Shown: positions 53,853 through 57,322 of the stretch, piece by piece
How positions within the stretch are numbered: position 1 is the first letter of the stretch
Layout: each line of letters begins with the position of its first letter
Assembly: GCF_003627215.1 (NCBI RefSeq)
Contig: NZ_CP032677.1
Span: forward strand, 2,671,501 to 2,735,500
Length of the DNA stretch: 64,000 nt
Source of the DNA: Pseudomonas sp. Leaf58
GTDB taxonomy: Bacteria; Pseudomonadota; Gammaproteobacteria; Pseudomonadales; Pseudomonadaceae
Direction: 5' to 3'
The notes under the pieces: model-generated
Told to the model about the DNA's origin: nothing
The model's database searches: none
What the model saw: only the letters and a program-made list of their open reading frames with translations
Position numbers and translations under genes: made by a program

Positions 53853-54794
53853 ATGCGACGACAACTCAATGGCCAGGTGTTCGTCTGGCTGCATGTGTTC
53901 GCCTGTGCCGCCCGGCACCTGTCCTTTACCCGGTGTGCCGAAGAGCTGCACATTACCCCGGGCGCGGTCAGCCAGCAGATGCGCCAGCTGGAAGAACGCC
54001 TGGGCTACCGGCTGTTCCTGCGTCGGGCGCGCGGCGTGGAGCTGAGCGCCGAAGGGCAACGCCTGGCACTCACGGTGACCGAAGCCTATGGCAACATCGA
54101 AGCCGAACTGCTGCGCCTGAACGCGGGTGAAATCCGCGGTACCTTGCGCCTGCGCTCAATCCCATCGTTCTTGGCCAAATGGCTCACGCCACGCCTGCCG
54201 CGCTTTCAACAACGCTACCCAGACATCGAGTTGCGCCTGGTTGCCGAAGACAGTGCCCAGGCGTTGCACCCCGGCGATTTCGACCTGGCCATCGACCTGA
54301 ACGATGGCAGCTACCCAGGCATGCTTTCGACGCCGCTGCTGGACGAGCAAATCTTCCCCGTATGCTCCCCCACCCTGCTGCGTGGCCGCCCGCCGCTGCA
54401 CGGGCCGGCGGACCTGGCGCATTACCCGTTGCTGCATGACATCACCGCCTGGCGCGGCAGTTCGGAATATGCCGAATGGGAGTTCTACCTGGAAGGCATC
54501 GGCGCCGCCGGCCTGGATGTGCGACGCGGGCATACCTTCAACCGCAACCACCTGACCATCGAAGCGGCGATTGCCGGCATAGGTGTGGCGATTGCCCGGC
54601 GCACGCTGCTTAACGACGAACTGGAGCGGGGTGCGCTGATCGTGCCGTTCGGCGTGCCGATCGCCAACCACAAGCGCTATGTGGTGCATTACCCGCCGGG
54701 CGGGTTGAACCAGCCAGGGGCGCGGGCGGTGCATGACTGGCTGGTGGAAGAAGCGCGCGGCTTCAGGGAACTGCACCCGCTAGGCAAGGATTAG
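53853..54794 (+). CDS. LysR regulator (GcvA/DsdC-like), divergent from sdaA
   Basis: This 313-residue LysR protein has the helix-turn-helix RHLSFTRCAEELHITPGAVS and a GcvA/DsdC-like effector domain (LTIEAAIAGIGVAIARRTLL). Members of this subgroup often control amino-acid catabolic genes, and the divergent sdaA, 146 bp away, is the likely target. The ATG at 53853 is used. The gene is followed by the repeat array at 54830. Confidence 0.88.
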   Translation: MRRQLNGQVFVWLHVFACAARHLSFTRCAEELHITPGAVSQQMRQLEERLGYRLFLRRARGVELSAEGQRLALTVTEAYGNIEAELLRLNAGEIRGTLRLRSIPSFLAKWLTPRLPRFQQRYPDIELRLVAEDSAQALHPGDFDLAIDLNDGSYPGMLSTPLLDEQIFPVCSPTLLRGRPPLHGPADLAHYPLLHDITAWRGSSEYAEWEFYLEGIGAAGLDVRRGHTFNRNHLTIEAAIAGIGVAIARRTLLNDELERGALIVPFGVPIANHKRYVVHYPPGGLNQPGARAVHDWLVEEARGFRELHPLGKD

Positions 54795-54829
54795 CCCAGT
54801 GGATGTCTTGGGCTTTGCGGTGATGCCAA

Positions 54830-54891
54830 GATCGAGCGCCGCCCTCGCGGCGCTTCGCGGGGCAAGCCCGCTCCCACATTTGTTTCGGGCC
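54830..54891 (+). repeat. Left 62-bp outer inverted repeat of the array
   Basis: It begins GATCGAGCGCCGCCCTCGCG and contains REP sequence (CTTCGCGGGGCAAGCCCGCT), ending with GTTTCGGGCC at the first unit. It matches the right arm at 61 of 62 positions. Confidence 0.95.
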
Positions 54892-55603
54892 AGTTACTCC
54901 TGTGAGGCCACCTCTGTCCGCCTTGTTTGCTCCATTCGATATCTAGGGGGCGGCTACTGTTCATCAGTCTTCAGCCATGCCCCCAGGCTGCAACCCACCT
55001 GGCACAGGAATAATTGGCCCGAAATTGTTTCGGGCCAGTTACTCCTATGAGCCCTCCCCTGTCTGCCTTGCTTGTTCCATTCGATATCTAAGGTTACGCA
55101 GCTGCGTCCCCCCATCCCCAGCCATGCACCCAGACTGCAACCCACCTGGCACAGGAATGATTGGCCCGAAATTGTTTCGGGCCAGTTACTCCTATGAGCC
55201 CTCCCCTGTCCGCCTTGCTTGTTCCATTCGATATCTAAGGTTACGCAGCTGCGTCCCCCCATCCCCAGCCATACACCCAGGCTGCAACCCACCTGGCACA
55301 GGAATAATTGGCCCGAAATTGTTTCGGGCCAGTTACTCCTATGAGCCCTCCCCTGTCCGCCTTGCTTGTTCCATTCGATATCTAAGGTTACGCAGCTGCG
55401 TCCCCCCATCCCCAGCCATACACCCAGGCTGCAACCCACCTGGCACAGGAATAATTGGCCCGAAATTGTTTCGGGCCAGTTACTCCTATGAGCCCTCCCC
55501 TGTCCGCCTTGCTTGTTCCATTCGATATCTAAGGTTACGCAGCTGCGTCCCCCCATCCCCAGCCATGCACCCAGGCTGCAACCCACCTGGCACAGGAATG
55601 ATT

Positions 55604-55665
55604 GGCCCGAAACAAATGTGGGAGCGGGCTTGCCCCGCGAAGCGCCGCGCGGGCGGCGCTCGATC
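55604..55665 (-). repeat. Right 62-bp outer inverted repeat of the array
   Basis: It begins GGCCCGAAACAAATGTGGGA and ends GGCGGCGCTCGATC; it is the reverse complement of the left arm with one mismatch in the GC-rich inner hairpin. Confidence 0.95.
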
Positions 55666-55723
55666 TGACAGGCAACATCCCTGTCAAGACGAACACCCCA
55701 CAGCGCCCTTAAAACACCGCGCC

Positions 55724-57145
55724 TTAATAAGCCTGCTTGCCCGTAAACGCATTCAGCGTGCGCACCAGAATCACGAAATCCAGCCACAGTGACCAGTTGT
55801 TGATGTACTCGATGTCCGAGTCCACCCGCTGGATCATCTGCTCGATATCCTTGGTTTCACCCCTGAACCCGCGCACCTGCGCCAGGCCGGTCATGCCAGG
55901 CTTGATATTGTGGCGGGCAAAGTAATCGACGATGTCCTGCGAATACAGCGTGTCATGTTGCAACGCATGCGGCCGTGGCCCAACCAGCGACATTTCCCCC
56001 GTCAGCACATTGAACAATTGCGGCAGCTCATCCAGGCTGGTACGGCGGATAAACGCTCCGATCCGGGTCAGCCGCGGGTCATTCCTCTGCGCCTGCTTGA
56101 CCACGCCTTCCTCCGGCTGGTGAACATGCATGCTTCTGAACTTCCAGATACGGAACGACTCGCCCGTCCAACCGGTGCGTTCTTGGCGGAAAAACACTGG
56201 GCCGCGGCTATCGAGCTTGATGGCCAACGCAACGGCCAGTAGCACTGGCGAGGCAAACAGTAGAATCAGCGCCGCCAACACCCTGTCCTCGAGGTTTTTC
56301 AGGAACAGGCTCATGCCCGTCAATGGCGTTTCCGACAAGGTCAGCACGGGGATCCCGGCAATTTCTCGCACGCTGTGGTTGATCAGCCGCAATGAGAAGA
56401 TATCCGGCACCCAGTTCACTGCAATGCACTTGTCGAGCAATTTGAAATACACATCGTTGATCACCTCCGAACCGCCCAACGGGGTCACCAAGTACACCGT
56501 GCGGATGCCGTGCTGGGCCAGGATTTCGTCCAGATCGGCAATGTGCCCGAGCACCGGCAGGCGCGGCTTGCCTTCGGTGCTTTCGCGCCCCGGCTCATCG
56601 ACCTTGTCGACCAGCACGCAACCCAGCACGCGCTCGCCAAACCAGGGGTTGTTGCTGATTTTCTGATACAGGAAGTTGGCCAGGTCACCGGCGCCAATAA
56701 TCAGTGCATTGTCTAGACGCGCATGCGCGGTAAAACGCTTTTGCAATTCACGTACGGCAAAGTGCAGGAACAACTGCGCGATGTAGCCAATGATGAACAA
56801 CTGCCCGACCAGTAGCCGCGAATAGGTTTCGCTCTGTTTGGTCAGGAAGGCCATGACCACCAGGAAGCAAAAGGTTGCCGACCAGGCCTTGAACAGCCGG
56901 AACGCTTTGATGGAAAGCCCGACGTTGGTCCGGTAAATCGCGTAATGATCGTAGATCACCGCCAGTGCACCAATCAGCAACAGCAGCATGATCACGTAAT
57001 CGGAAGTGATGTAGCCAAACTGTTCGTAGATCAGGTACCAGGCAATACCGGTCACGGCAATACCATCCAGGCCGGCCTGGATGGCGTTACTTACACTGCT
57101 TCTTCGCTGAAGTAAGGAACGACTGCTTCTGGGTTCGAAAACCAT
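55724..57145 (-). CDS. Polyprenyl-phosphate sugar phosphotransferase (WbaP/WcaJ type)
   Basis: This 473-residue integral membrane enzyme starts exopolysaccharide assembly by putting sugar-1-phosphate on undecaprenyl phosphate. Several N-terminal helices (about 20-115) precede a CoA-binding-like cytosolic domain and the C-terminal bacterial sugar-transferase domain with [20 protein letters not shown] and [12 protein letters not shown]. The ATG at 57145 is taken because GAGG sits six bases upstream; ATG 57157 and TTG 57205 are alternatives. The neighbouring glycosyltransferases on the same strand, and the order, resemble the KT2440 pea exopolysaccharide cluster. Confidence 0.92.
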
Positions 57146-57322
57146 TTCAGACCTCATCAATTCGAGCGTGGCAAGTGCCTTTGCATCCACCGACAGGGTT
57201 TGCAAATAGCTTATGCAAAACCCCTGCGGCTGGCCTATGCAAGGCCCAAGTCATTGATCTCACTGTAGCAGCCCCCCTGCTCGGCGTTCCCCGAATCATC
57301 GTCGATGTCGGTTTTGGCCGAT

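Follow-up and report, generated by a model that had tools for sequence, protein, structure and literature searches.

A REPIN-type element family with a long interior in Pseudomonas, and a copy whose interior appears to have been amplified in place

In a 64,000-nucleotide stretch of the Pseudomonas sp. Leaf58 genome (the window; NZ_CP032677.1, positions 2,671,501 to 2,735,500), we found a tandem array that probably represents one insertion of an approximately 330-bp, long-spacer non-autonomous element of the REP/RAYT (REPIN) type, with its interior amplified in place. The element consists of nested palindromic layers, namely an outer arm (OA), a hairpin arm (hp2), a REP, a terminal repeat and an interior of about 145 bp, after which the layers return inverted; in the window copy, head-to-tail amplification of the interior would have given rise to the five units. 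The family to which it belongs is REPIN-like in most of the features by which REPINs are recognized, the exception being its long and conserved spacer, and what is new here is the conserved long interior, the modular exchange of layers and the amplification of the interior only.

Tandem Repeats Finder detected a single tandem array in the 64-kb window (54880-55612, period 147, 5.0 copies, 94% matches), with unit starts at 54882, 55027, 55174, 55321 and 55468. In the family orientation used for our alignments, all units lie on the minus strand. Unit 1 (54882-55026) is 145 bp long and only 84-85% similar to units 2-5, whereas units 2 (55027-55173), 3 (55174-55320), 4 (55321-55467) and 5 (55468-55613, ending in the right terminal repeat) are 97-100% similar to one another. 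The four internal junctions, which read TGGCCCGAAATTGTTTCGGGCCA, are identical and palindromic (the first at 55015-55037, the others from 55162, 55309 and 55456), and the last C of TGGCCCGAAAC occurs only in the final unit. The array is enclosed by an inverted repeat of 76 nt (95%), in the inner part of which 62 of 63 bases are identical. From outside to inside, each arm comprises hp2 AGATCGAGCGCCGCCCGCGCGGCGC, a REP with its GTGG foot inward and the terminal repeat GTTTCGGGCCA. On the left, hp2 (54829-54853, plus strand; one base off AGATCGAGCGCCGCCCGCGCGGCGC) precedes the REP arm (54854-54879, plus), and on the right the REP arm (55617-55642, minus) is followed by hp2 (55642-55666, minus). 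Diverged OAs at 54795-54828 (plus) and 55667-55707 (minus) bring the full element to approximately 54795-55707. Two genes converge on the array, one for a LysR-type regulator (53853-54794, plus; Pfam PF03466 and PF00126) that ends at the element's left edge, the other for a sugar transferase (55724-57205, minus; PF02397 and PF13727). Five units of about 147 bp inside inverted REP arms, a 62-bp inverted repeat matching at 61/62 and outer arms terminating in the unit's own half-hairpin had all been described in the original prediction and were confirmed by Tandem Repeats Finder, the unit comparison and the arm alignment; its claim that the terminal unit is the most diverged held for the left end and failed for the right, and its limits of 54830..55665 proved slightly short.

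Open frames of 271 aa (54977-55792, plus) and 277 aa (54954-55787, minus) traverse the array, its period of 147 being divisible by 3. We rejected coding by the array, as periods elsewhere (251, 226 and 110) are not multiples of 3 and no Pfam domain passed independently (one frame scored 30 bits for EndA_linker, where the cut-off is 27, but none of its stretches passed). An assembly artefact was also considered, since the length of the window array is taken from the assembly alone. This explanation is extremely improbable for the locus and is refuted for the family as a whole: the units differ from one another, arrays of several periods are present at 12 other loci of a genome assembled in two contigs, and related elements occur in other genomes.

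With one unit as a DNA query, the window's own genome returned 124 matching rows, many of them the two halves of one palindrome, and 40 of the 60 first-look candidates were scored. The REP-arm pattern, allowing up to 3 mismatches, matched this genome 140 times (71 forward, 69 reverse) and its reversed control 0 times; the bracket is thus not a product of chance, and the array is not the self-contained feature that had been proposed. Solo elements with the same ends are approximately 250 bp long, except in a subtype of about 222-225 bp whose interior is shorter (in a copy list that may miss copies), in line with the REP-bounded ancestor of about 250 bp predicted from the window alone, and they follow the bracket plan of hp2, REP, terminal repeat and ~145-bp interior, then the same layers inverted. 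In 71 non-redundant flanks (out of 78) from this genome, aligned at hp2, information content declines outward in 20-bp steps from 0.72 bits per base through 0.50 to 0.08, and then stays at 0.02-0.04. Because conservation falls to background 40-60 bp outside hp2, the OA, a diverged zone of about 40 bp per side with a consensus of roughly GGGCnGnnaGGTGCnTGcCTTGgGaTTTgtGGCGCCTGTG, belongs to the element, which is therefore about 330 bp long. Two individual loci are worth recording: at L100 (1463-2948), some 1.5 kb of foreign DNA, possibly an insertion sequence, splits the terminal repeat of one element, and at L077 two identical elements (1497-1750 and 2142-2395) lie 645 bp apart with flanks that are far less alike (196/300 bases).

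Outside this genome, the search for unit and arm that had been suggested was productive, the hp2 pattern being present in 25 of 149 sampled Pseudomonas genomes with up to 178 matches in one and none in the control. Paired hp2 arms are mostly separated by 202-206 or 174-175 bp, with exceptions of 166 and 170 bp (among opened loci, where copies were possibly missed), and interior length and core are conserved in several genomes. The exact interior pattern was found in a named genome collection only in Pseudomonas sp. SID14000 (9 stretches), own-genome records possibly being excluded there. Judging from REP type, the other hp2-bearing genomes would belong to the P. putida group. There were no matches in the plasmid and phage collections, and the hp2 pattern matched 6 IMG/VR contigs, two of them with complete elements; the latter contigs (L193 and L196) are filed as viral and may be host DNA next to a prophage.

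The terminal repeat exists in two types. T1, GTTTCGGGCCA, was found in 34 of the 149 genomes, 15 of which have only one or two matches, a level that the reversed control likewise gives in 19 genomes; T2, GTTGCAACGTG, was found in 25, including 8 with one or two matches. Counts of T1/T2 were 142/0 in G117, 109/0 in G170, 0/69 in G166, 52/119 in G139 and 137/20 in the window's genome (G000), and one element (L157) is a hybrid with one T1 and one T2 end. Since the terminal inverted repeats delimit the amplified unit exactly, the interior could be an independent MITE of another transposase, with GTTTCGGGCCA inverted repeats as its ends, that merely happens to lie inside REPs; two genomes in which terminal repeats occur without the hp2 pattern would agree with this. 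Against it, terminal repeats at the G000 loci examined lie inside REP arms or REP-enclosed arrays, and neither a target duplication nor a transposase with these ends was found, so we consider an independent MITE very improbable. The two genomes concerned, G023 (21 T1 matches) and G104 (11 T2 matches), may carry the repeats in other brackets.

We measured the agreement between the two arms in 77 elements from several genomes (38 from the window's genome). Identity within an element is 0.948 for REP arms and 0.761 for terminal repeats, compared with 0.701 and 0.590 between elements, and in neither case did any of 2000 shuffles reach the observed mean; hp2 is nearly invariant (0.975 within, 0.970 between, 5/2000 shuffles) and hence little informative. 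REP type varies between elements and genomes yet matches within an element. At least two matched base types were present at 33 of 64 arm positions (65 distinct arm pairs), and in an RNAalifold consensus of 16 elements the arms were paired throughout, 9 of 77 pairs being doubly changed (including columns AU:8/GC:8 and GC:8/CG:8), with an overall covariation term that was slightly unfavourable (+1.41). The arms can fold as the single hairpin with compensatory changes that is typical of REPINs; pairing in the interior is only partial. The arms may be kept alike, and interiors and REP types swapped, by template switching or gene conversion. At L225, the G139 orthologue of L059, the element is a long perfect palindrome. 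Its right outer arm repeats the left one exactly in inverted form, which is not the case for the arms in the window's genome, as if template switching had taken place.

A transposase of the expected kind is present in the window's genome, which has three matches to PF01797. An intact RAYT gene (G000:C1:1441812-1442264) lies between two family arrays and is bracketed by the same hp2-REP arms; its product scores 152 bits against NF047646 (REP-associated tyrosine transposase; cut-off 80) and matches PDB 4er8 with an E-value of 1.1e-9. REP feet face outward around this gene and inward in the elements. RAYTs of at least 190 bits to it were found in 20 of the 149 genomes, 19 of these hp2-bearing, and were missing from 6 of the 25 hp2-bearing genomes (G051, G112, G113, G122, G127 and G132); RAYTs in general are widespread (133/149), and the co-occurrence may reflect shared ancestry. 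Among 32 distinct transposase loci opened, four had hp2 nearby, on both sides at our own RAYT and at L179 (G101) and in part at L174 and L176, which are also the places where the linked RAYT with the same REP expected of REPINs was found; the remaining loci had other REP feet or none. The window's genome also has a second RAYT (G000:C1:5187704-5188156), 70% identical, with other flanking REP feet and no hp2. By its sequence and surroundings, a RAYT is likely to drive movement of the element, and the family probably spreads with the help of this transposase gene: the enzyme would use the GTGG foot to recognise the REP hairpin in its single-stranded form and would move the element, as proposed for REPINs, and by analogy may cleave these arms.

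Arrays were found at 13 loci of the window's genome, comprising the window, eleven others and L099, where a ninefold 142-bp array with 100% matches consists of interior-only units inside the REP bracket. Among 54 array junctions (46, plus 8 at L099), 35 contain one REP arm, 19 contain none and 0 contain both, those without a REP arm being located in the window (4), L053 (2), L099 (8) and L061 (5), whose array unit is a shortened interior with part of the REP. Such arrays could arise by replication slippage or unequal exchange. On the simplest reading, junctions with two facing REP arms would be long perfect palindromes and would be lost or never form. At L099 (1381-2660 and 2731-2872 of G000:C1:1547500-1551500), the array is followed by a 32-bp minisatellite of OA-like sequence. 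Four distant arrays (L065, L066, L067 and L068, near 3.09, 3.16, 3.20 and 2.49 Mb of G000:C1) share an identical spacer that is not part of the element, and thus array units that contain flank seem to have been copied between loci.

Gain and loss of the element were followed at 12 solo sites, all T1 in the window's genome, in five other genomes (G057, G139, G181, G108 and G117). Of 60 site-genome combinations, 54 could be scored: 20 had neither element nor REP (the flanks being no more than 104 bp apart in 12 and separated by at least 131 bp of other DNA in 8), 19 had other REPs, 6 a full T1 element, 5 a full T2 element and 4 were classed as minimal, one of which (L057 in G117) is a truncated right half of the element upon inspection. 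At the window site itself, the two genes almost touch in G181 with no OA, hp2 or REP between them, and the interval is likewise short in G117 and G153; G057 and G108 have a short outward-footed REPIN, and G139 has the same hp2-REP arms around a different terminal repeat and interior. An insertion shared by G000 and G139 is not supported at this site, where OA identity of 0.62 on each side equals the non-orthologous mean of 0.62; as the G139 OA is no closer than unrelated OAs, the G139 element may be an independent insertion. Empty sites were thus observed, with boundaries too diverged for a target duplication to be read. The family is short, non-coding and inverted at its ends, with occupied and empty sites, as expected of MITEs; element-free orthologous sites, together with the RAYT gene between two family arrays, fit the REP-associated, nonautonomous, MITE-like character that had been attributed to the locus from the first.

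Layers of the element do not always turn over together. The OAs of shared sites are on average 0.72 identical (29 arms), compared with 0.62 for non-orthologous arms (95th percentile 0.72), which suggests that some shells are shared while the cargo differs, as seen at L054 and L057 with G139 and at L058 with G139 and G057. At two shared sites, L062/L041 (with G057) and L081/L094 (with G139), the interior is of the same type and inverted relative to the flanks; inversion in place was not upheld, for some paralogue matches better than the orthologous copy does, and inversion therefore cannot be told from replacement by an oppositely oriented copy. The L058 site provides a counter-example, as the inserts of G139 and G057 there are 96% identical and oriented alike. 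We tentatively raise the possibility, which we think doubtful, that the interior is a second-order cargo in REP brackets, taking on the REP type that the resident RAYT recognises. Such a cargo would be swapped, turned around, multiplied or lost inside a docking shell of OA and hp2 that outlasts it. If true, the interior would amount to a hyper-parasite of REPINs and RAYTs, or to an example of cassette-like exchange without an integrase. Small palindromes of the form OA-hp2-OA were found in 25 of the 149 genomes, 22 of them hp2-bearing and the other three (G036, G055 and G120) with one place each. They were considered as the original target, but a deletion scar is the better fit: the two hp2 copies of the full element are inverted to each other, and the palindrome at L283 retains GCGAA from the edge of the REP. 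Such a remnant would result from slippage between one hp2 copy and the other.

Concerning gene context, 38 of the 41 loci could be classified (3 lack an arm), with genes called by a simple ORF rule that makes distances approximate: 24 lie between tandem genes, 11 between convergent and 3 between divergent genes, a dispersal in intergenic DNA that is shared with REPINs, and 26 of the 38 are within 40 bp of a gene 3′ end as opposed to 2 within 40 bp of a 5′ end. This distribution would suit a structured 3′-end element kept by the host, whether a bidirectional terminator, a stabiliser of mRNA 3′ ends or a small-RNA cassette, whose copies persist because they are functional, as would the 5 terminator-like sites in the array region (1.1 in shuffles, sd 1.2) and the folding of the unit, which exceeds that of shuffles on both strands (z -3.2 and -3.4). 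We nevertheless regard such an origin as unlikely. A location next to gene 3′ ends is common to REPs in general and hence not diagnostic of a function, 20 of the 54 orthologous combinations had neither element nor REP, the array region contained 0 promoter-like sites (0.4 expected), and the best Rfam match reached 19.1 bits against a gathering score of 37, well short of membership in an RNA family. The structured RNA cassette first suggested is not supported, in view of the last two results and of the opposite orientations of the interior at shared sites; a terminator cassette may be indicated by the 3′-end positions and terminator-like sites. Any cellular role of the family is one that we infer.

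Returning to the preferred reading, a REPIN-type element with an amplified interior, we compared the family with known systems, each described here from the available part of its source. REPINs and tandem clusters of Pseudomonas fluorescens SBW25 (PMC3116915) share with it an inverted REP pair that forms one hairpin, compensatory changes within that hairpin, dispersal between genes, and clusters that are tandem or lie beside RAYT genes. SBW25 REP doublets peak at 71 and 110 bp and have poorly conserved spacers (PMC3116915), whereas REPs of the window family are about 180 bp apart, enclose a conserved ~145-bp interior with terminal repeats of its own, carry the additional hp2 and OA layers and show interior-only amplification. 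The GTAG-1 REP dimers of P. putida and P. entomophila are similarly inward-footed (TT), with spacers that have complementary ends; TT dimers outnumber HH dimers in family 1, and REP dimers of some other bacteria lie inside palindromes (PMC3733652). Their spacers are mostly 20-100 bp, and the available part of that source describes neither a ~145-bp spacer nor interior exchange. The REPtrons of E. coli and others share a RAYT-type enzyme (NF047646) beside REPs and the GTAG/GTGG foot, and their TnpAREP cuts at CT near the REP (PMC8266576); in the window family hp2 ends in ...GATCT at the OA border, where a similar cut may fall. Closest in plan are the short layered REPINs at orthologous sites (for example L202, L206 and L218), which share the order of outer hairpin, REP, loop, REP and outer hairpin, and differ in having a short loop in place of ~145 bp, other outer hairpins and no recognised OA.

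These short REPINs, along with the published inward-footed dimers, structured spacers and tandem REPIN clusters (PMC3116915 and PMC3733652, as far as available), would allow the window locus to be an ordinary REPIN or BIME cluster, that is, an inward-footed REP pair with a spacer that is long by chance, duplicated by slippage and without identity of its own. We judge this to be quite improbable because the spacer keeps its length (mostly 202-206 or 174-175 bp from one hp2 arm to the other) and its core motifs from species to species, the two types of terminal repeat replace each other from lineage to lineage, and interiors have multiplied in the absence of REPs. The family has the two inverted palindromic REPs with a GT(A/G)G foot that characterize REPINs, and departs from them in its ~145-bp interior of conserved length and core, where a short, poorly conserved spacer would be expected. 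Titles and opening abstract lines of the papers listed for REPINs, RAYTs and P. putida repeats, with subscription papers mostly outside this scope, contained no description of the long-spacer family, which is weak evidence of novelty; the initial impression that the array was unknown to the literature may hold for the long-spacer family and does not extend to REPINs and tandem REPIN clusters as such.

REPINs are usually treated as bare hairpins. The present family shows a REP-bracketed element whose conserved interior has the length of a small RNA gene. Its REP type, terminal repeat, interior and outer shell each vary on their own, yet in most layers the two arms still match. It offers natural test material for the upkeep of arm symmetry, for the movement of cargo by RAYTs and for the absence of two facing REPs in arrays, and it is abundant enough in several related species for exchange and amplification to be measured.
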